Shown here: piece after piece, positions 5,425-15,942 of the stretch
How positions within the stretch are numbered: position 1 is the stretch's first letter
Layout: each line of letters begins with the position of its first letter
NCBI GenBank assembly: GCA_903874255.1
Contig: CAIQRN010000074.1
Span: 1 to 34,450, forward strand
DNA: 34,450 nucleotides
Direction of reading: 5' to 3'
From: an uncultured Actinomycetes bacterium
GTDB taxonomy: Bacteria; Actinomycetota; Actinomycetes; Nanopelagicales; Nanopelagicaceae
Notes under the pieces: generated by a model
Databases searched by the model: none
Told to the model about the DNA's origin: nothing
The model's input: the letters and a program-made list of their open reading frames with translations, nothing else
Position numbers and translations under genes: made by a program

Positions 5425-6911
5425 GCTTTATCTTCAATCGCTTTAGCTAGCTCAATGCGATCGTCGAATTCATAATTAATTCCATTGATTTCCTGACCCT
5501 TTTCATGGCCCTTTCCTAAAATCATTACAACGTCACCCGCAGAAGCAAGATCTACAGCTTTCTTTATCGCTGATGCGCGATCGACTATCACTTCACTAGG
5601 TGTTATTACATCAATATCTAGAACCATCTGAACTAAAATCTCTTCTGGCTTTTCGCTTCTTGGATTATCGCTAGTAAAAATTGCGATATCTGAACCCTCA
5701 TGTAGCGCTTGCCCCATAAGCGTGCGTTTTGTTTTATCTCGGTCTCCGCCACACCCTAGAACGGCAATTACTTTGCCATCAGAAATCTGATGAGCGGTTT
5801 CTAATACTCGCTTAACTGCATCGGGCGAATGTGCGTAATCTACAAGTGCCGTAAAATTCTGGCCTAGTCGGACTGCCTCAAGTCGGCCCGTTGCGCCTTT
5901 TAGAGTTGGCAAAATCGCAGCAATATCGATTGGATCGATTCCGCTTTCAAATGCAATTGCAACGGCCATTAATAAGTTATCGAAGTTATAGCCACCATGT
6001 AGTTGTGTCTTTGCTTCAATCAATATTCCACCCGTACCGCGAATCGAAACTGAAGCCCCAACATAATCAGTTTCAATTGAATTGAAATGCCATGTTGCTT
6101 GTCTATCCAATCTGGAAACAGTTACGACTGGTAACTCTGTTTGCTTTGCAAGTCGTAAGCCATGCTCATCATCAATATTTATTACCGCTAAGTCAGCATA
6201 CTCAAAGGTGAACAATGCAGCTTTTGCCTTGAAATAATCCTCCATGGTTTTATGAAAATCCAAATGATCTTGGGAAAGATTTGTGAATCCGACTACTGCA
6301 AAATGACTTCCCCGTACTCGATCTAAAGTAATTGCATGACTAGATACTTCCATTACTAAATTTCTCATGTGTCTCTCACGCATAACCGCTGATAGCGCTT
6401 GCAAATCGCTACTTTCAGGCGTCGTCCGTTTGCTGGCTAGAATCTCAACACCGATTCGGGTTTCTACAGTTCCAATTAACCCGCTCTCGCGACCCGCAGC
6501 GCTCATAATTTGGTGCAATAAAGTGGTTACTGTGGTTTTTCCATTAGTTCCTGTGACTCCAACGCTATAAAGATCACGCATCGGTTCTGAATAAAACCAG
6601 GCGCTCACAATTCCGGCGGCTCTACGTGGGTTTGCAGAAATCAGCACGGGAACCCCGGTCACTTTAAGTGCACCTGACTCATCAGTGAGAACAGCGACTG
6701 CACCACGTGCGATTGCATCTGCAGCAAAATCTGCTCCATGATGATTTTCCCCAGGAAGGGCAATAAATAGATCACCCGGAACCACTGCATTACTTGTTTG
6801 TGCAATTCCGCTTACTTCACAAATCTGATCAACTGTTGGATCTAACTGTGCACCAACTACATCTGCAATCGCACTTAATCTCTTCGAATGATTAGCCAGC
6901 GGTCGTTGCAT
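5421..6911 (-). CDS. murE: UDP-N-acetylmuramoyl-L-alanyl-D-glutamate--diaminopimelate ligase type MurE
   Basis: GVTGTNGKTTVTTLL, DNPRSEKPEEI (a typical Dap-ligase motif), GKGHEKGQEI. Confidence 0.95.
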   Translation of the reverse strand: MQRPLANHSKRLSAIADVVGAQLDPTVDQICEVSGIAQTSNAVVPGDLFIALPGENHHGADFAADAIARGAVAVLTDESGALKVTGVPVLISANPRRAAGIVSAWFYSEPMRDLYSVGVTGTNGKTTVTTLLHQIMSAAGRESGLIGTVETRIGVEILASKRTTPESSDLQALSAVMRERHMRNLVMEVSSHAITLDRVRGSHFAVVGFTNLSQDHLDFHKTMEDYFKAKAALFTFEYADLAVINIDDEHGLRLAKQTELPVVTVSRLDRQATWHFNSIETDYVGASVSIRGTGGILIEAKTQLHGGYNFDNLLMAVAIAFESGIDPIDIAAILPTLKGATGRLEAVRLGQNFTALVDYAHSPDAVKRVLETAHQISDGKVIAVLGCGGDRDKTKRTLMGQALHEGSDIAIFTSDNPRSEKPEEILVQMVLDIDVITPSEVIVDRASAIKKAVDLASAGDVVMILGKGHEKGQEINGINYEFDDRIELAKAIEDKA

Positions 6912-8691
6912 TGGTCACCTTCTTTGCTTGCAAATCTTTTTCATTGAGTGCAACAGGGACAATTGTTGATCCAGTTGGAGCTATGTGGCGACTTTGCAAA
7001 ACAAAAGTCATCACTTTTTTAAATACTGGCCCAGCTAATGTGCCTCCCCAGTGTTGTCCTTTTGGATTTTGAATAGTCACGCTAATTACATAAGCCGGCC
7101 TGTCGGCTGGAGCAAAACCAATAAACGAAGCTGTATATCCTCGATAGCACCCACATGTGTCATCAATTCGCATTGCGGTTCCAGTTTTACCGGCAACCCG
7201 ATAGCCAGGTATCGCTGCGCTCGGTGCAGTTCCATTTGCAGAAACAACGCTTTCCATCATCAATCTCAGGGCTTGAGCAGTTTGTGCACTTACGGCACGT
7301 TGACTTGTTCGATTTCCCGCAGGAGTGAAATTACCGCTCGCATCAGTAATTCCCGCAATCACTGTTGGCGAAACCCGCACTCCATCATTAGCAATTGTTG
7401 CAAAAATACTTGTCGCTTGAAGCGCAGTGACAGAGTATCCCTGACCGAATGCCATTGTTGGGGCAGTTGTGCCAGACCAGTCGGCAACTTTACGTAAAAT
7501 CCCACGCGACTCCCCCTGCAAACCCGAGCCAGTGCTTACGCCCACGCCAAATTTCTGTAGATATGAATACAAAGTTTGATGCGAAAGAAGTTCGCCAACT
7601 TTTATAGATCCGGTATTACTTGAAATCGCTAAAATTCCTGAAGTGGTCAACCGCTCTGTGGGATGTTTTTCATGATCGTGAAAAAGTTTATTGGAACGTT
7701 GAAGTGCATACGGGACAGTGAATACAGTGTTTGGTGTGACTTTCTTTTCTTCAATGGCCGCTGCCATCGTGATTACTTTTCCAGTTGAACCCGGCTCATA
7801 AACTTCCTGAACCGATGGATTTCTCATCTCAACTAATGAAACTCGTGAAGTGTCATTAGGGTCGTAGGTTGGTGCGGTCGCATGTGCCAATATTTCACCG
7901 GTTTTAGGATCCATCACAATGACTGTTCCACTAACCGCACCGGAATCCTTTACAGCTTTTGCAATCGCTTCTGCTGCAACCCATTGCACGTCACGGTCAA
8001 TAGTTAACCGGATTCCACTTCCTTGCTTAGCTGGAATGATTTCAGATTGAGACCCTGGAATTTCTGCACCGCCTGCTGATGCAAATGAATACTTTCCAAT
8101 TGTTCCTGCCAGTAATGAGTTCTTGCTGGATTCAAGTCCAGAAGCACCAACACCATCATGATTTACAAATCCAATAAGTGAAGCAATGAGAGAACCTGAG
8201 GGATATTCACGGATATAGCCACGTTCAGAATAAAAACCGATAATTCTTTGTGGACTCATACTTGGAAAAGCCTTGTTGTATTCCGCTATGGCCGCAGTTA
8301 ACTTCTGCCACACTAATGGCTTTGCATTTTCAAGGACCATGTTCCATTTGCGAGTTCCAGTAATCTTTGCTTCTACTTCTGCTGTAGACATTCCAAGAAT
8401 CGGGGCTATTAAGGCAGAGGTTGCAGTGGGATCAGAAATCTGTGTTTGATCAACGACAATACTTGTTGCCGCAACGCTTCGTGCAAATGCAACACCATTT
8501 ACATCAGTGATTGTCCCTCTAGGTGCTGGCAAAATTTTCGTATTTTCCATTTCATTAATTGCGCGATTTCGATATTCCCCTGCTTGAATTGCCTGCACTT
8601 GAACAAGTCGTACACAAAATAATGCAATAACCAAGGCCAAAACAAAGATCAAACTTCTAATTCGTTTCTGAGCTAAAGAAAAATTACCCAT
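6892..8691 (-). CDS. ftsI: Peptidoglycan D,D-transpeptidase FtsI/PBP3-type
   Basis: Transpeptidase motifs STGK, SSNTG and KTGTA; N-terminal TM; operon position. Confidence 0.94.
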   Translation of the reverse strand: MGNFSLAQKRIRSLIFVLALVIALFCVRLVQVQAIQAGEYRNRAINEMENTKILPAPRGTITDVNGVAFARSVAATSIVVDQTQISDPTATSALIAPILGMSTAEVEAKITGTRKWNMVLENAKPLVWQKLTAAIAEYNKAFPSMSPQRIIGFYSERGYIREYPSGSLIASLIGFVNHDGVGASGLESSKNSLLAGTIGKYSFASAGGAEIPGSQSEIIPAKQGSGIRLTIDRDVQWVAAEAIAKAVKDSGAVSGTVIVMDPKTGEILAHATAPTYDPNDTSRVSLVEMRNPSVQEVYEPGSTGKVITMAAAIEEKKVTPNTVFTVPYALQRSNKLFHDHEKHPTERLTTSGILAISSNTGSIKVGELLSHQTLYSYLQKFGVGVSTGSGLQGESRGILRKVADWSGTTAPTMAFGQGYSVTALQATSIFATIANDGVRVSPTVIAGITDASGNFTPAGNRTSQRAVSAQTAQALRLMMESVVSANGTAPSAAIPGYRVAGKTGTAMRIDDTCGCYRGYTASFIGFAPADRPAYVISVTIQNPKGQHWGGTLAGPVFKKVMTFVLQSRHIAPTGSTIVPVALNEKDLQAKKVTNATTAG

Positions 8692-9091
8692 GATTTACCG
8701 TGCCAGGTGTACTTGCAGGTTGGTCAAGAGTTAAGTACGTAGAACTTGTCGCTGGTTTCATTCCAAGTGCTGTTGCCGCTTGTGCTAACTGCTCAGGCGA
8801 AGAAAGATTATCCATCGTGCGAGATATTGCCTCTCGCTCATCGCTCACCATCTTTGCTTCTTGCTTAAGGTGGCTCAAAGTAAATGCATCTTGGGCAAGC
8901 AAAGTGTTAATAAATAGTAAGAATAGAAGCGTCAATAAACCGAGCGCCGAAACAAACTTTGCAAAATATTTACGGCTCTCCTGCATATCAGCCGTTCCTT
9001 CGGGAACCAGTTTCAAAGCAACCTTTGCGCCTTGAGCGGCAATGACTTGCCGTGAACGGGTAATTGCTGGTGCAAATGAAGTAATCGCCAT
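8684..9091 (-). CDS. FtsL-like septum formation protein (small bitopic membrane protein)
   Basis: 135 aa with a single TM (FVSALGLLTLLFLLFINTLLAQDAF) followed by a coiled-coil-like segment; located between rsmH and ftsI as FtsL typically is. Confidence 0.75.
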   Translation of the reverse strand: MAITSFAPAITRSRQVIAAQGAKVALKLVPEGTADMQESRKYFAKFVSALGLLTLLFLLFINTLLAQDAFTLSHLKQEAKMVSDEREAISRTMDNLSSPEQLAQAATALGMKPATSSTYLTLDQPASTPGTVNHG

Positions 9092-10044
9092 TACGCGGCC
9101 ACTCTTTCAATTGCACGTAATCGAACAGAAGCTGAACGCGGGTTCGTATCAAGTTCGGTTTGCGATGGTGTTTCGCTTCCACGAAAAACAAGTGCGAACT
9201 TTGCGGCAAATTCAGGTAACTCAAATGGGAGGTTGCGAGGAGTGCCCGAAGTTGATGAGGAAACGAATAACTCTTTGACGATTCGATCTTCAAGTGACTG
9301 GAAGGACATCACTACTAGGCGTGCACCTATATTTAATAGCTCCATGGCTGCCGGCAGTGCGCGCGTAATTGCACCTAATTCATCGTTTGTTTCAATACGC
9401 AGGGCCTGAAAAGTACGTTTAGCTGGGTTGCCGCCAGTTCGACGAGTTGCTGCCGGAATTGCATCTTTTATTAATGCTGCCAATTGAGCCGTTGAATTTA
9501 ATGGGGCAACTGCTCTTGCCTTAACAATCGACTCAACAACGCGAGTGGCAAACTTCTCTTCACCATATGTTCGAAGAATTCTTACCAACTGACCAGGCGC
9601 ATATGTATTAACAATCTCGGCAGCTGTTAATGACTGAGTTCTATCCATGCGCATATCAAGTGGTGCATCTTGAGAATATGAAAAACCACGTTCACTTTGA
9701 TCTAATTGCATTGACGAGACGCCTAAATCAAATAGCGCGCCATCTATTTTTGAAAAACCATGTGCTTTAACAGTTTCTGCAATCTGATCAAATGTTGCAT
9801 GTGAAGCATGAAATCGATTTGAAAAATCTGTCAGGCGGTTATTGGCGCTTGCAATTGCATCTTGATCTCGGTCGATGCCGATAACAGTTAGCTGAGGGAA
9901 TTTGGAAAGTAGCGCTTGCGTATGGCCGCCTAGTCCCAGGGTTGCATCGACAACAATTGGCTGCGCTGTTGAAACTATTGCGGGAGAGAGTAAATCAATG
10001 CAACGTTCACGCATTACAGATATGTGTGCGATATTGCTATCCAT
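9091..10044 (-). CDS. rsmH: 16S rRNA (cytosine(1402)-N(4))-methyltransferase RsmH (MraW)
   Basis: HISVMRERCIDLL, DATLGLGGHTQALL, FDLGVSSMQLDQSERGFSY, PAKRTFQALRIETNDEL motifs. Confidence 0.96.
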   Translation of the reverse strand: MDSNIAHISVMRERCIDLLSPAIVSTAQPIVVDATLGLGGHTQALLSKFPQLTVIGIDRDQDAIASANNRLTDFSNRFHASHATFDQIAETVKAHGFSKIDGALFDLGVSSMQLDQSERGFSYSQDAPLDMRMDRTQSLTAAEIVNTYAPGQLVRILRTYGEEKFATRVVESIVKARAVAPLNSTAQLAALIKDAIPAATRRTGGNPAKRTFQALRIETNDELGAITRALPAAMELLNIGARLVVMSFQSLEDRIVKELFVSSSTSGTPRNLPFELPEFAAKFALVFRGSETPSQTELDTNPRSASVRLRAIERVAA

Positions 10045-10091
10045 TACTCCCCCTCTTAATTGGTTTTACTCTGCTAGAAATATTTTTACTG

Positions 10092-10193
10092 CACTCACCT
10101 CTGGTCACCGCCGGCCGACGGATCTATTTGATAACGGCGCCGGGGAAGGGGCGCCGTTATCTTCGAAGGGTCGGCGGTGGCCACAAGTGAGTG
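10092..10193 (-). promoter_or_regulatory. Long hairpin in the mraZ-rsmH spacer; candidate structured 5' leader of rsmH (possible mraW-type RNA element)
   Basis: Perfect 12-nt inverted repeat GATAACGGCGCC (10130-10141) / GGCGCCGTTATC (10150-10161), loop GGGGAAGG. Outer imperfect stem CACTCAC..GTCACCGCCGGCCGAC (10092-10118) with GTCGGCGGTGGCCAC..GTGAGTG (10170-10193). It fills nearly the whole intergenic gap. Confidence 0.7.
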
Positions 10194-10195
10194 AT

Positions 10196-10627
10196 TTAGA
10201 ACAAGCCCGGGAAAACCTCCTCTGAAATATCAGCAAAACCTTTTTCGCGATCTGCAAGATATTCATTCCAAGAAGTTGCATCCCAAATTTCAACGCGAGT
10301 ATTTGCACCGATAACAATGCAATCTTTTTCAAGAGCTGCATAAGTGCGCAGTCCTTGTGGAATTGTTACTCGACCTTGGCGATCAGGAATTTCATCATGT
10401 GCACCTGCAAACATCACACGCATGTAATCTCGCGATGATTTTGCAGTGACTGGTGCTTGTTTTAATTTCTCTGTAATTATGGAAAATTCCTGAGATGGAA
10501 ATACATAAAGGCAACGTTCTTGTCCTTTAGTAATTACCAAACCGGCAGATAACTCATCACGAAATTTCGCTGGCAAAATTAATCGCCCTTTGTCATCTAG
10601 ACGTGGTTCATGAGTGCCAAGAAACAT
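10196..10627 (-). CDS. mraZ: Transcriptional regulator MraZ
   Basis: [26 protein letters not shown], a canonical MraZ N-terminus. Confidence 0.96.
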
Positions 10628-10682
10628 TTCCTTTTCACTCCCTTCCCCGAGGTCTATGCACCTACCCGATGTGCTTAATCCC

Positions 10683-10726
10683 CCACTTTACTCCACTTTG
10701 CTCCTTTTTCAACCACCTTGAACCAC
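10683..10726 (-). promoter_or_regulatory. Phased MraZ-box-like repeat array upstream of mraZ
   Basis: Plus-strand CCAC at 10683, 10693, 10713 and 10723 with degenerate CCTT at 10703. Minus strand: GTGGTTCAAG GTGGTTGAAA AAGGAGCAAA GTGGAGTAAA GTGGGGG, an exact 10-bp period. Confidence 0.78.
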
Positions 10727-10770
10727 TACAACCCCCTTTGCCCCCATTGAAGCCCCAGAAAAAGGGCATG

Positions 10771-10796
10771 AAAAAAGGGGCCCACGTGGGAGCCCC
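10771..10796 (-). terminator. Rho-independent terminator downstream of the DUF3040 gene
   Basis: Minus strand GGGGCTCCCACGTGGGCCCC followed by TTTTTT. Confidence 0.8.
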
Positions 10797-10819
10797 TTGC
10801 TTGGTAAGAAACAGTCTAG

Positions 10820-11161
10820 TTACTGGTTGTTACGCTCATCCCAGCGCTTTTCCAAGCGAGCGCTCAATGATCGAGCGGGCTTGGATGTGCCGACCGCCGG
10901 CTTACTTATGCTCGAAATCGCCAGAATTAGCCCGGCAAGAGCGATAACAAATCCCAGCACTCCGATTGGCGTGGTCTTAACTATCAACCCGCCGAAAAGT
11001 ACGGCCAGGCCGAGAACTACAAGAGCAAAGGCGATGCCAATTCGAGATTTTTTGCCCTGGCTGATTCCACCTGAAAACGCTGAAACTAGGCGTGGATCCT
11101 CGGTCATAAGGGCAGCTTCCATCTCCTGAAGCATTCGCATTTCATGATCTGATAGAGCCAT
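10820..11161 (-). CDS. DUF3040 domain-containing membrane protein
   Basis: MALSDHEMRMLQEMEAALMTEDPRLVSAF is the typical DUF3040 N-terminus; two hydrophobic helices. Confidence 0.9.
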   Translation of the reverse strand: MALSDHEMRMLQEMEAALMTEDPRLVSAFSGGISQGKKSRIGIAFALVVLGLAVLFGGLIVKTTPIGVLGFVIALAGLILAISSISKPAVGTSKPARSLSARLEKRWDERNNQ

Positions 11162-11204: not shown

Positions 11205-12392
11205 TCACTCCTCATCAGCCTGCTCAGGCTTAATTAAACGCGCTGGGCGCACACTGCCCTTGCCAAAACGGGCCCGCGCTTTGTCCATCGCCCCCTCCGC
11301 CTGACGCCAACCCACCTCACGTTCGCCAAGGACCAACTGCACTGGCGCTTCTTGGCTCAAATTCTCAAGTGAGACTCCGACTAGGCGCAATCTCGCCCTA
11401 TCAATACGAAGTGCTTGGTAGAGATTTTTTACTACCTCATATACATCGTGCGTACTATCGATTGGAAGCGGCAAAGTCTTACTGCGATTGATTGTTGAGA
11501 AATCCGCAAAGCGGACTTTGATACTAATTGTTTTGGCGAATAACTCGCGGTCTCGTAATCGCGCCGTTGCTCTCTCTGTTAATCGTAAGAACTCAGTCAA
11601 AATCTCTTCTGGGCTATCTAGATCTTGTGGGAAAGTTTCGGCAGCGCTAATACTTCGATCAGGCTCATCCGGTGTTACATCACGATAATCGCGTCCCCAC
11701 GCAAGTTCATATAACGATGCACCATTTGCTTCTCCAACTGCACGAATCAATGTTGCACGTGGAAGCTTTGCAATATCTTCAATTGTTCGTAATCCTAAGC
11801 GTTCAAGTACTTCAGCGGTTTTTGGCCCGACTCCCCACATTGCTTTAATTGGCAAAGGGTGCAGAAAGGTAAGAATCCGATCTGCAGATATTTCTAACAT
11901 TCCATTAGGTTTGCAATGTGCCGAAGCTAATTTGGCTATAAATTTAGATGGTGCGATACCCACTGAACATGTAATGCCCTCTTGCTCTTCGATTTTCTTG
12001 CGAATGGCAACGGCAATCTCGCGACCTGTACCTAAAAGTTTTTTTGATCCAGTTACATCAAGGAATGCTTCATCAAGTGAGATTGGTTCGACCCAAGGTG
12101 TGAAACTATGAAATATCTCCATGACGTGACTCGAAACTTCTTGATACCTAGGCATGTCAACCGGTAAGAAGATTGCATGTGGTGCCAAGCGCCGTGCACG
12201 CCCAACTGGCATCGCCGAATGAATTCCAAATTTTCGGGCTTCGTAATTTGCTGCAGATACAACACCACGTGCACCCATTCCGATCACAACGGCCTTACCT
12301 TTTAACTCTGGATTATCGCGTTCAGCAACGGATGCAAAAAATGCATCCATATCGACATGAAGAATTGTTGCCTGAACTTGCTCTTCACTCAT
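11205..12392 (-). CDS. dinB: DNA polymerase IV (Y-family, DinB-like)
   Basis: ILHVDMDAFFASVAERDNPELKGKAVVIG, SLDEAFLDVTGS, CSVGIAPSKFIAKLAS; overlaps the upstream dnaE2 by 4 nt. Confidence 0.95.
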   Translation of the reverse strand: MSEEQVQATILHVDMDAFFASVAERDNPELKGKAVVIGMGARGVVSAANYEARKFGIHSAMPVGRARRLAPHAIFLPVDMPRYQEVSSHVMEIFHSFTPWVEPISLDEAFLDVTGSKKLLGTGREIAVAIRKKIEEQEGITCSVGIAPSKFIAKLASAHCKPNGMLEISADRILTFLHPLPIKAMWGVGPKTAEVLERLGLRTIEDIAKLPRATLIRAVGEANGASLYELAWGRDYRDVTPDEPDRSISAAETFPQDLDSPEEILTEFLRLTERATARLRDRELFAKTISIKVRFADFSTINRSKTLPLPIDSTHDVYEVVKNLYQALRIDRARLRLVGVSLENLSQEAPVQLVLGEREVGWRQAEGAMDKARARFGKGSVRPARLIKPEQADEE

Positions 12393-15300
12393 ATTGCCAG
12401 CGTACTTTCTTTTATGCGCCAGGATTCATAGGCCGCGCGCAGATCCCACGCACCTGTTGCGCGTAATGAAATTCCACGGGCCCCCGTGCGCCGAGTAATG
12501 CCACGGATCAGTAGCAGGGATGAGGAATAGAGGGTGCTCGCATAGTCGGCTTGAACGTCGGTAAAAAATGTTGAATCACTGCAGCCATAGCCATCATCTA
12601 GCGTCACAAAGATGACACGTTTACCGCTGCGCACTGGTGGAGTTTGCATTGCTGTTTTAATTCCGGCAACTAAAACCGATGATTGCGAACGTTGTTTAAG
12701 TAAATCCGATGAACGAACTGCGCCTATAGCATTAAGGAAATCACTATAGAACTCTATTAAGTGTGCCGACATGTCCATTCCTAAACGTTCAATTTCATAT
12801 TTAACGCTTTCAGCCGGAGTCATATCGGCTAGGCCACTGCTAATTAATACTGGTGCAGGAAAAGCCAAATTCATCTGTGCGCCAGTAACTCCAGCGTTTG
12901 GAGACTTTTGTAAATCAGAAAAGTGCAACAACAAATCACGGCGATTAACGTCGGTATGCAAGCGGTCAAATGCACCAGTCAATATTGCGCTCTCGGTGAC
13001 AGGTGCACTACAACCAGCACGGCGGACAAAATCAGTTAAATCTATATATGGGCGTCCAGCAATTATTGAAGCTACTTCTGCATCGCTAATCTTTGCAAGA
13101 GTAGAAAGTGCAATGCGGATCGCTTTTCCACCATCTTCCACTCGATACACCGCATCAGATTCATTTATATCTAGCGGTGCCACTGTTAAACCCATTTGAC
13201 GAACTTCATCAACTATTAATCGCTTGGGATACATTCCTGGATCATGGGTCAGTACTCCGGCTAAAAAAGCTGCTGGGTAATGAGTCTTTAGCCATGCCGA
13301 TTGATATGTAGGTAGCGCAAAGGCTGCAGCATGAGCTTTGCAAAAACCAAAAGATGCAAAAGCCCGCAGAACCTCCCAGATCTCATGAACAATTTTTAGT
13401 TCATACCCACGCGCTATTGCTGCTGGAAAAAACCAATCGCATACTTCCTGTTGTCCGGCCTTGTCCCCCAATGCCCGTCGTTTTTCATCGGCGCTGGCTA
13501 AGGAAATTCCTGTCATGGTCGCAATGATTTCAATGACTTGTTCGTGGAAAACAACAACACCTTCGGTATCGCGCAGAATTTCATACAAATCGGGATGAAT
13601 AATTTGAGCTGTTGCCCAACCGTGTCGCGCTTTTAAAAAAGGCGTAATCATGTCGGATTTAACTGGGCCGGGCCGAAAGAGTGAGATATCAATAATTAAA
13701 TCAGTAAATGTTTTGGGTTCTAACTTACCCACTAATTCGCGTTGGCCTGGGCTCTCAATCTGAAATAGCCCCAAAGTTTTGGTGGATTGAATGAGCGAAT
13801 ATGTATCTGGATCATCAAGTGGAACGCAATCAATATCAACGCTCTTTTCTTCAGTGCGAGTTATTTCCTCAAGCGCATAGGAAATCGCCGACTGCATGCG
13901 CACACCCAAAACATCGAGTTTTAATAAACCAATCGCTTCTACATCATCTTTATCAAAAACCACCATCGGATAACCACTTGCATTTGATAAGAGTGGCGTG
14001 CGATCGAGTAAGCCACCATCAGATAAAACAATGGCGCATGGATGCATCGATAAATGTCTCGGCAATCCATCAAGACGTTCAGCAAGTGCAATTGTCATCG
14101 CCGTTAATGGTGCAGAGATATTGAGTGAACGAAGCTCGGGCAGATTTTCGAGCGTTTTAGAGATATTACGTGCACGAACATGCGGCATCGATTTTGCCAA
14201 CATATCAATCTCCATACCGGGCAACCCCAGAGCCGCCCCTGCATCTCGGATTGCATGTCTGGCCCGGTATGTATCAACCATGGCAACGGTTGCGCATCGT
14301 GATTGATTGCCGGGCTTATTCCATTGGGTATTGCCATAGCGTTTAAAGACCATGTCATAAATCTCAAGACGGCGGTGTGATTCAACATCGATATCTATAT
14401 CGGGTAACGCGCGGCGCAGCGGGGAACAAAAACGCTCCATCAATAAACCATGTTGCAATGGATCAACACCAGAGATTCCAAGTAGATGACAGATTAATGA
14501 ACCTGCACCGCTACCCCGTGCTGCTACGCGAATACCCGCATCTCTTGCCATGTCACAAATATCTGCAACGGTCAGAAAATATGATTCAAAGCCAAGAGTT
14601 GCAACGGTAGATAGTTCATCATCTAGGCGTGCACGAACTTTTTTAATAGTTGCGCTATCGCTATAGCGCCAGTTAATTGCCGCTTCGCTACGAGAGCGTA
14701 AAAGCAAGCGCATCTCATGCGCCGAATCCACACCAACTACATGTGGCTCAGGTAAATGTGCACCGCCCAAACCAATATCGCGTTGTGGTGATAGAAGACA
14801 ACGTTCGGCCCACTGCCGTGTTGTTGCTAACAACTGCCGTGGAGTTCGCTCACCTGCAGCGCGCGCAATCTCTGCAGCTAATGAAATCATTTCATCGCTA
14901 GATTTTAAAAAACCTTCAGCATTGCGCCGTTCAACATGGCGGGGATGCAGAGGAACTAATTGGCGAGCGCAATCTAAGACATCGGCCACTGGTCCATCGC
15001 CGCGATCACGCATTCGCACTGCATTGGTAACCACGGCATCAATATCGTGGTCTCTGGCAAAAATAAGTGATTTAGCTGCGTGCGAGGTAGAACGCGGGCC
15101 TTTACCTGCAACTAAGTGAGATACGCACTCGATTGCATTGCCTGCAAATAAATCACGCAACTGATTAAAGGCAGTAAAAGCTGCGTCAATTCGATTATCT
15201 GCAATTAATTCACCTACTGGTGATTGCGGACCATGTAGGGCATAAACATTGCTGCTGTAATGGCTAAAACTTTGCAAGAATTCTAATGTTAAAGCAGGGT

Positions 15301-15616
15301 TGCGGTCATCACTTGTCATTGCAAGAGATGTAAGCAATCGACACAGCGAGCGCCATCCCCCATCGCTGTGTGCCAAAAGTGTGATGCGATTATTTGCGCC
15401 CTGCATATCAATTGCTAGGTTGACGCCGATAATGGGGGCGATACCGAAATCAACACAACTTTGTGCAAAACGAATAGCACCAGCTAATCCATCACGATCG
15501 GTAAGTGCCAACGCGGGCATTTCAAATTCGCTAGCGCGTTGTACTAAATCAGCTGGTTGCGTGGTTCCATACTTAAGTGAATAAGCACTGGCAACATTTA
15601 AATGAATAAAACTCAT
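12389..15616 (-). CDS. dnaE2: Error-prone DNA polymerase III alpha subunit, DnaE2/ImuC type
   Basis: 1075 aa; AARGSGAGSLICHLLGIS, LPDIDIDVESHRRLEIYD, FHEQVIEIIATMTG, SFGFCKAHAAAFALPTYQSAWLKTHYPAAFLAGVL. Size and operon partners favour DnaE2 over DnaE1. Confidence 0.88.
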   Translation of the reverse strand: MSFIHLNVASAYSLKYGTTQPADLVQRASEFEMPALALTDRDGLAGAIRFAQSCVDFGIAPIIGVNLAIDMQGANNRITLLAHSDGGWRSLCRLLTSLAMTSDDRNPALTLEFLQSFSHYSSNVYALHGPQSPVGELIADNRIDAAFTAFNQLRDLFAGNAIECVSHLVAGKGPRSTSHAAKSLIFARDHDIDAVVTNAVRMRDRGDGPVADVLDCARQLVPLHPRHVERRNAEGFLKSSDEMISLAAEIARAAGERTPRQLLATTRQWAERCLLSPQRDIGLGGAHLPEPHVVGVDSAHEMRLLLRSRSEAAINWRYSDSATIKKVRARLDDELSTVATLGFESYFLTVADICDMARDAGIRVAARGSGAGSLICHLLGISGVDPLQHGLLMERFCSPLRRALPDIDIDVESHRRLEIYDMVFKRYGNTQWNKPGNQSRCATVAMVDTYRARHAIRDAGAALGLPGMEIDMLAKSMPHVRARNISKTLENLPELRSLNISAPLTAMTIALAERLDGLPRHLSMHPCAIVLSDGGLLDRTPLLSNASGYPMVVFDKDDVEAIGLLKLDVLGVRMQSAISYALEEITRTEEKSVDIDCVPLDDPDTYSLIQSTKTLGLFQIESPGQRELVGKLEPKTFTDLIIDISLFRPGPVKSDMITPFLKARHGWATAQIIHPDLYEILRDTEGVVVFHEQVIEIIATMTGISLASADEKRRALGDKAGQQEVCDWFFPAAIARGYELKIVHEIWEVLRAFASFGFCKAHAAAFALPTYQSAWLKTHYPAAFLAGVLTHDPGMYPKRLIVDEVRQMGLTVAPLDINESDAVYRVEDGGKAIRIALSTLAKISDAEVASIIAGRPYIDLTDFVRRAGCSAPVTESAILTGAFDRLHTDVNRRDLLLHFSDLQKSPNAGVTGAQMNLAFPAPVLISSGLADMTPAESVKYEIERLGMDMSAHLIEFYSDFLNAIGAVRSSDLLKQRSQSSVLVAGIKTAMQTPPVRSGKRVIFVTLDDGYGCSDSTFFTDVQADYASTLYSSSLLLIRGITRRTGARGISLRATGAWDLRAAYESWRIKESTLAI

Positions 15617-15894
15617 ACGTTACGGATAATCCATTGCCCACTGAGTTCGTCACGCTCTAATTCAAAGGTCGTCAACGCACCTATTGGTGCCGCCTCTACT
15701 CGCCATAGTGCACGGGCTTGATCATCTGGCCTGTACTTGCCATCACTAATGCGATTCCACCAACCCCCAGCTTCGCACCACCTAGACAGGACTGCGTGAA
15801 TACGAAAGCGCCGACCCTTGAAAGTGAATTCAATAGGCGTTGTTGCTCCATCGATTGTGACATCGTTGGCGGGATTGACCTGAGGCGCTGACAT
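15613..15894 (-). CDS. DUF6504 family protein
   Basis: Small protein, FTFKGRRFRIHAVLSRWCEAGGWWNR...ALWRVEA...FELERDELSGQWIIRNV, consistent with DUF6504; directly upstream of dnaE2 with a 4-nt overlap. Confidence 0.75.
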   Translation of the reverse strand: MSAPQVNPANDVTIDGATTPIEFTFKGRRFRIHAVLSRWCEAGGWWNRISDGKYRPDDQARALWRVEAAPIGALTTFELERDELSGQWIIRNV

Positions 15895-15926
15895 TGTTGG
15901 CCCTTCCTTCTATGAGCTGTGGATAT

Positions 15927-15942
15927 TCGAACAGATGTTCGA
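15927..15942 (-). promoter_or_regulatory. LexA/SOS box (actinobacterial type)
   Basis: Perfect palindrome TCGAAC-AGAT-GTTCGA, matching the actinobacterial LexA consensus TCGAAC-N4-GTTCGA; about 33 bp upstream of the DUF6504-dnaE2-dinB operon start. Confidence 0.9.

Follow-up and report, generated by a model that had tools for sequence, protein, structure and literature searches.

A 34,450-nt stretch of a metagenome-assembled genome (MAG) of an uncultured member of the Nanopelagicaceae (contig CAIQRN010000074.1, called here the window) carries a three-gene cassette that encodes the small protein DUF6504, the DNA polymerase DnaE2 and the Y-family polymerase DinB (called here PolY), headed by a LexA box. 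This cassette quite probably specifies a translesion polymerase that is built of several subunits, is induced in the SOS response and belongs to the DnaE2B-[ImuB-C]-PolY-RecA type, ImuB-C being the C-terminal domain of ImuB, and it is a well-supported new example of a kind of machine already predicted rather than a new kind. An earlier note on this DNA had described three minus-strand genes with 4-nt overlaps, a perfect LexA palindrome in front of them, and a Y-family partner keeping the motif SLDEAFLDV and a QL-type clamp-like segment. All of the open reading frames (ORFs) and the two overlaps joining DUF6504, dnaE2 and dinB were recovered at the positions given there (Table 1), as were the palindrome, SLDEAFLDV and the segment QLVLGE. 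Pfam searches returned PF20114 (38 bits, cut-off 24.2), IMS (179 bits) and DNA_pol3_alpha (239 bits), and the inventory of the genome comprises one Y-family protein, two DnaE and one RecA.

DUF6504 and the C-terminal domain of ImuB

The identity of DUF6504, which the earlier note had labelled an uncharacterised third component, is provided by PF20114, which ties it to the ImuB C-terminus. In the Methylocella and Methylovirgula plasmid imuA-imuB-dnaE2 operons, it is the ImuB gene that bears the annotation 'DUF6504 family protein', and PF20114 matches residues 432-504 of the 507-residue Methylocella ImuB with 30.4 bits, compared to the cut-off of 24.2. Since this match to the ImuB C-terminus lies above the cut-off, DUF6504 is, by profile homology, a standalone ImuB-C domain. 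Weaker PF20114 matches occupy the same C-terminal place in the ImuB proteins of Paracoccus and Rhizobium; a hidden Markov model of standalone DUF6504 proteins picks up the C-terminal ends of ImuB proteins (best E 1e-7), and hhalign aligns DUF6504 with proteobacterial ImuB-C at 92% probability. AlphaFold models of DUF6504 and of an actinobacterial ImuB-C (mean predicted local distance difference test scores of 83 and 84.5, respectively) are both mainly beta, and the order of their core strands agrees when strand lists, not coordinates, are compared. Searches of the PDB with the DUF6504 profile and model gave no fold match, and no PDB match has been reported for ImuB-C either (PMC12926913). ImuB-C was earlier described as a standalone domain (PMC3765255); the name DUF6504 was not found in the literature searched, which included the text of PMC12926913. 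ImuB is thus in effect split in this cassette into a free ImuB-C and a catalytically intact PolY core.

The two polymerases

DnaE2 has the features expected of an error-prone polymerase: it is the second DnaE of the genome, its polymerase aspartates D406, D408 and D568 are invariant in the alignment, and the metal ligands of its PHP domain are lost (HLNVA/TDRD versus HLHVH/TDHG in the genome's own DnaE1). In a tree of 58 sequences, the ImuB-linked DnaE2 all fall into one clade (100%), and the DUF6504-linked DnaE2 all fall into another (100%), which also takes in one Streptomyces plasmid DnaE. The window DnaE2 lies in the DUF6504-linked clade, beside the Propionibacteriaceae, the family of Tessaracoccus lapidicaptus, and it is on this tree, whose set leaves the reference sequences of PMC12926913 outside, that we assign it to the DnaE2B clade. 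Both the tree and the broken PHP site led us to reject the possibility that it is a plain copy of DnaE1. The NCBIfam DnaE1 model scored slightly above the error-prone model for this protein, both being below their cut-offs.

The catalytic motifs of PolY, SLDEAFLDV and DMDAFF, are intact, and the SxDEAxxD motif is kept by nearly all PolYs of the named Genome Taxonomy Database (GTDB) cassettes. The nearest solved structure is that of a DNA polymerase IV (7yll). A phylogeny of this DinB against ImuB, which had been recommended in the earlier note, groups the window PolY with active DinB-type polymerases and apart from ImuB, so that a diverged ImuB was rejected on both the motifs and the tree. The segment QLVLGE resembles the clamp motif of E. 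coli Pol IV. It is followed in the tail by RQAEGAMDKARARFGKGSV, which aligns without gaps to the N-terminus of the host RecA, RQKALDTALAQIERQFGKGSV, the FGKGSV core being identical. The local score of this alignment was equalled by 116 of 20,000 shuffles of the tail, and the best match to the RecA N-terminus (RecA-NT) falls in the tail for 108 of 116 homologous PolYs. RecA-NT motifs of this kind are taken as docking sites for RecA/ImuA (PMC6511836, PMC12926913). From this tail (RFGKGSV), it follows that RecA probably replaces ImuA'.

Search for ImuA' and ImuB in the genome and its relatives

The closest named relatives of the host are Candidatus Planktophila / Nanopelagicaceae and other freshwater actinobacterial MAGs, and the genus was assigned from the nearest named relatives. 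The source MAG measures 1.57 Mb and is 93% complete in 131 contigs, and same-genus genomes that are at least 90% complete measure 1.2-1.8 Mb. The earlier note had seen no ImuA' or ImuB beside the cassette and had named a separate LexA-controlled imuA'-imuB locus, as well as a LexA box not conserved in relatives, among the findings that would speak against its reading; neither was encountered. Searches with ImuA' and ImuB profiles built from actinobacterial sequences found neither protein in the source genome or in any of 73 genus genomes, six of which are single-contig, so that the absence holds genome-wide and a canonical mutasome hidden elsewhere in the genome was rejected. Of the canonical mutasome, neither an imuA' gene nor an inactive Y-family core fused to ImuB-C was found in the source genome. 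Exactly one IMS match was present in each of the 63 genus genomes having any, the six single-contig ones among them. Within the genus, the ImuA' profile gives only cross-matches of 26-30 bits, which in the source genome fall on recA (C122), and the sole hit of the ImuB profile is the cassette PolY, which lacks the C-terminal part.

At the level of the class, the two profiles match strongly in the same 19 genomes. Among 47 class genomes, 18 carry ImuB only, 21 DUF6504 only, one both and seven neither, a near-exclusion with a Fisher p of 2.7e-6 computed ignoring kinship. In the single genome with both (G079), neither dnaE2B nor polY stands beside the DUF6504 gene.

LexA box and conservation of the cassette

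The box TCGAACAGATGTTCGA is the sole perfect LexA palindrome in the window and one of three in the 1.57-Mb genome. A second perfect site and a tandem one-mismatch site lie between lexA and a divergent LysM-like gene, and about 160 bp upstream of recA a site with one mismatch, TCGAACAGATGTTCGG, has an identical spacer. From these sites at the cassette, lexA and recA, we conclude that the host possesses an SOS regulon of the usual actinobacterial kind, of which the cassette is a part. A survey of the SOS box and three-gene order in relatives, also recommended in the earlier note, showed both to be conserved in the genus and across Actinomycetes. Among 34 same-genus loci examined in detail, the box lies directly upstream of DUF6504 in 33 and the order DUF6504-dnaE2-polY is found in 33, those failing for box or order being cut by contig ends. 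PF20114 is present in 61 of the 73 genus genomes, source MAG counted, and all 12 genomes lacking it are less than 90% complete. Among 80 named GTDB loci gathered by DnaE2 similarity, among them loci of Propionibacteriaceae, Intrasporangiaceae, Geodermatophilaceae, Nocardioidaceae and Streptacidiphilus, the box heads the cluster in 72, DUF6504 is present in 68 and PolY lies close downstream in 65; DUF6504 accompanies dnaE2B in nearly all loci examined. Because it is kept in 33/34 same-genus and 72/80 GTDB loci, the LexA box is more than a chance occurrence. Mitomycin C induces the LexA targets dnaE2 and dinP of Streptomyces venezuelae 31- and 14-fold, respectively (PMC9380542), and the cassette would likewise be induced by DNA damage under LexA control.

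As a separate observation, a one-mismatch LexA box lies upstream of minus-strand TPR-like and helicase-like genes (L106:3933, corresponding to C81:31931 of the source genome itself), which are possibly a further SOS target.

Wider operon and natural rearrangements

Outside Nanopelagicaceae, a gene of the HEPN_SAV_6107 family (PF18726) usually lies between DUF6504 and dnaE2 (47 loci), and a methyltransferase gene often lies between dnaE2 and polY. HEPN_SAV_6107 was not found in the genus of the window. It was rejected as operon-specific, being present in 38 of the 47 class genomes with or without DUF6504. In a survey of HEPN proteins it is entered only as a family of actinobacteria that lacks the conserved catalytic motif (PMC3710099), and no earlier mention of a link to the DUF6504/dnaE2 cassette was found in the literature searched. 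A DUF3040 gene was found at 112 of the searched loci, usually right after polY, and this polY-DUF3040 link is kept across the class.

Several genomes carry rearranged forms of the operon. In G092 (L221:147-14486), an insertion of about 8 kb parts DUF6504-HEPN from dnaE2-polY, and dnaE2 has a LexA-type box of its own at 8665. In G088 (L099, L225), DUF6504 and dnaE2 form a pair behind a box; polY, which has no box, lies apart from them and remains with the methyltransferase and DUF3040 genes. G079 (L102:2071-3767), which also carries ImuA'-ImuB-DnaE2, keeps the box, DUF6504, HEPN and DUF3040 with no dnaE2B or polY between them, and a cassette-type PolY survives near HEPN, without dnaE2B, in ImuB genomes. 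The rearrangements in G092 and G088 support most strongly a LexA control of the DUF6504-dnaE2 pair and less strongly the inclusion of PolY.

In the window, the DUF3040 gene also joins the cassette to a dcw-type (division and cell wall) cluster of mraZ-, rsmH-, ftsL- and ftsI-like ORFs, named by eye (6892-11161).

Table 1. Features of the cassette and its surroundings (window positions unless a locus is named)
Feature	Position	Strand	Remarks
DUF6504 (standalone ImuB-C domain)	15613..15894	minus	93 amino acids (aa), predicted all-beta; PF20114, profile comparison, AlphaFold 2 models
dnaE2 (DnaE2B clade)	12389..15616	minus	1075 aa; D406, D408, D568 intact, PHP metal site broken
dinB / PolY	11205..12392	minus	395 aa; sole Y-family protein of the genome
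LexA/SOS box TCGAACAGATGTTCGA	15927..15942		~32 bp upstream of the DUF6504 start
Putative beta-clamp motif QMNLAF of DnaE2	12860..12877	minus	Q914 invariant in alignment; function predicted, QLxLx-type motif
PolY catalytic motif SLDEAFLDV, residues 105-113	12054..12080	minus	
Putative beta-clamp motif QLVLGE of PolY, residues 352-357	11322..11339	minus	
RecA-NT-like motif RQAEGAMDKARARFGKGSV of PolY, residues 363-381	11250..11306	minus	
DUF3040 (SCO2097 family) flanking gene	10820..11161	minus	conserved downstream neighbour; not proposed as machine part
HEPN_SAV_6107 loci	L084-L103, L182-L216 (e.g. L186:2865-3419)		

Proposed mechanism and alternative explanations

For complex formation, division of labour and mutagenesis, we infer the following scheme. 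The cassette would be repressed by LexA until RecA filaments formed on damaged DNA cause LexA to cleave itself, upon which the three genes would be translated as one coupled unit. PolY, whose active site is kept, would dock on the beta clamp via QLVLGE and on RecA via its RecA-NT-like tail. The detached ImuB-C barrel, DUF6504, would bind the dead PHP domain of DnaE2, as does ImuB-C in the M. tuberculosis model, and would thereby link DnaE2 to PolY, and DnaE2, devoid of PHP proofreading, would extend beyond the lesion. A more specific proposal, which we put forward tentatively and ourselves rather doubt, is a SOS holoenzyme with two active polymerases, in which PolY inserts opposite the lesion, DnaE2 extends, the ImuB-C barrel bridges the two and RecA acts as a regulatory subunit; this holoenzyme might be the sole inducible translesion machine of streamlined freshwater actinobacteria, with HEPN_SAV_6107 as an extra subunit or regulator in larger Actinomycetes.

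Several observations weigh against the assignment to the DnaE2B-[ImuB-C]-PolY-RecA type. The match of the PolY tail to RecA is short; no PF20114 match was found by Pfam in four actinobacterial ImuB proteins, and hhalign of DUF6504 against actinobacterial ImuB2-C is weak (1.7-10%). Because this direct comparison is weak, the homology between DUF6504 and ImuB-C rests on the alphaproteobacterial ImuB. Furthermore, the units separate in G088 and G079, and a strict four-part complex is therefore not universal. The unboxed polY of G088, the cassette-type PolY persisting near HEPN without dnaE2B in ImuB genomes, and the fact that both polymerases look active would also suit a simple co-regulation, in which DinB and a DnaE2 assisted by DUF6504 act as two independent polymerases, induced by damage from a common promoter, without forming a single complex. 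This explanation is unlikely, as the overlaps are tight and the gene order is strict throughout the genus, and AlphaFold supports the complex type in other species (PMC12926913).

DUF6504 might also bind DNA and sense damage so as to direct the polymerases, as proposed for ImuB-C by Aravind et al. 2013 (PMC3765255), rather than act as a protein-protein bridge; its presence under its own box without dnaE2 in G079 is in agreement with such a role. We nevertheless regard it as decidedly unlikely, given that the models of PMC12926913 place ImuB-C on the PHP domain of DnaE2 and that DUF6504 tracks dnaE2B in nearly all loci. Finally, it could be argued from the state of the MAG (93% complete, 131 contigs) that imuA' and imuB of a canonical ImuA'-ImuB-DnaE2 mutasome were simply missed. 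This is extremely improbable in view of their absence from all 73 genus genomes, including the six single-contig ones, of the weak genus ImuA' matches being RecA in the source genome, and of the position of DnaE2 outside the ImuB-linked clade.

As an SOS-induced machine of the DnaE2B-[ImuB-C]-PolY-RecA type, the cassette would offer a minimal three-gene test bed for DnaE2 mutasomes without ImuA'. As ImuB is naturally divided here between an active PolY and a free ImuB-C, each half can be tested for its role on its own, and a further lead is the HEPN gene that larger relatives conserve inside the operon. It also appears that streamlined genomes retain a LexA-boxed machine dedicated to mutagenesis, with their only Y-family polymerase.

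Comparison with known systems

A fourth DnaE2B group, composed of an apparently active PolY, a standalone ImuB-C and RecA and occurring only in Actinobacteria, was predicted in 2026 (PMC12926913), and acceptable AlphaFold complexes were reported for all eleven module types. The cassette displays every feature of this type that can be read from sequence. As in the published type (Tessaracoccus lapidicaptus), its DnaE2 lies outside the ImuB-linked clade and its PolY is apparently active (SLDEAFLDV, DMDAFF) with a RecA-NT-like tail; ImuB-C is standalone (PF20114 above cut-off, hhalign 92%), ImuA and ImuB are absent and the host belongs to the Actinobacteria. Therefore, the idea of the earlier note that an active DinB may replace ImuB as DnaE2 partner is sound, but it had already been published as a prediction, and the RecA-NT-like tail had been overlooked; likewise, its description of a non-canonical LexA-controlled DnaE2 cassette with an intact DinB and no ImuA'/ImuB stands, except that DUF6504 is not of an unknown kind, the ImuB-C part being present. 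Unlike the published type, the window comes from a member of the Nanopelagicales, a lineage with genomes of ~1.3-1.6 Mb, whereas DnaE2 is called typical of fairly large genomes (PMC12926913). Its lineage has a LexA box throughout and an operon free of HEPN and methyltransferase genes, and the cell has no Y-family protein besides this PolY.

The M. tuberculosis ImuA'-ImuB-DnaE2 system shares with the cassette LexA control, a second DnaE, an ImuB-C domain and a RecA-NT-type motif on the Y-family partner; by contrast, the window has no ImuA', its PolY is intact, ImuB-C is a separate protein and DnaE2 belongs to another clade. The Streptomyces DnaE2B-inactive PolY (scDinB2)-RecA system is similar in having a LexA-controlled dnaE2-dinP pair and a DnaE2B-type polymerase, but its PolY, scDinB2, has no activity, and the system reportedly lacks ImuB-C (PMC6511836, PMC12926913). 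In the Geobacter lexA-imuB-C-polY operon, as in the cassette, SOS control extends to an active PolY with a free-standing ImuB-C (PMC6511836), but DnaE2 is absent. Compared to these systems, what is new here is the occurrence in an acI-type streamlined lineage with small genomes, the LexA control across relatives, the equation of DUF6504 with ImuB-C, the near mutual exclusion with ImuA'/ImuB and, in larger relatives, an operon that includes a HEPN_SAV_6107 gene.

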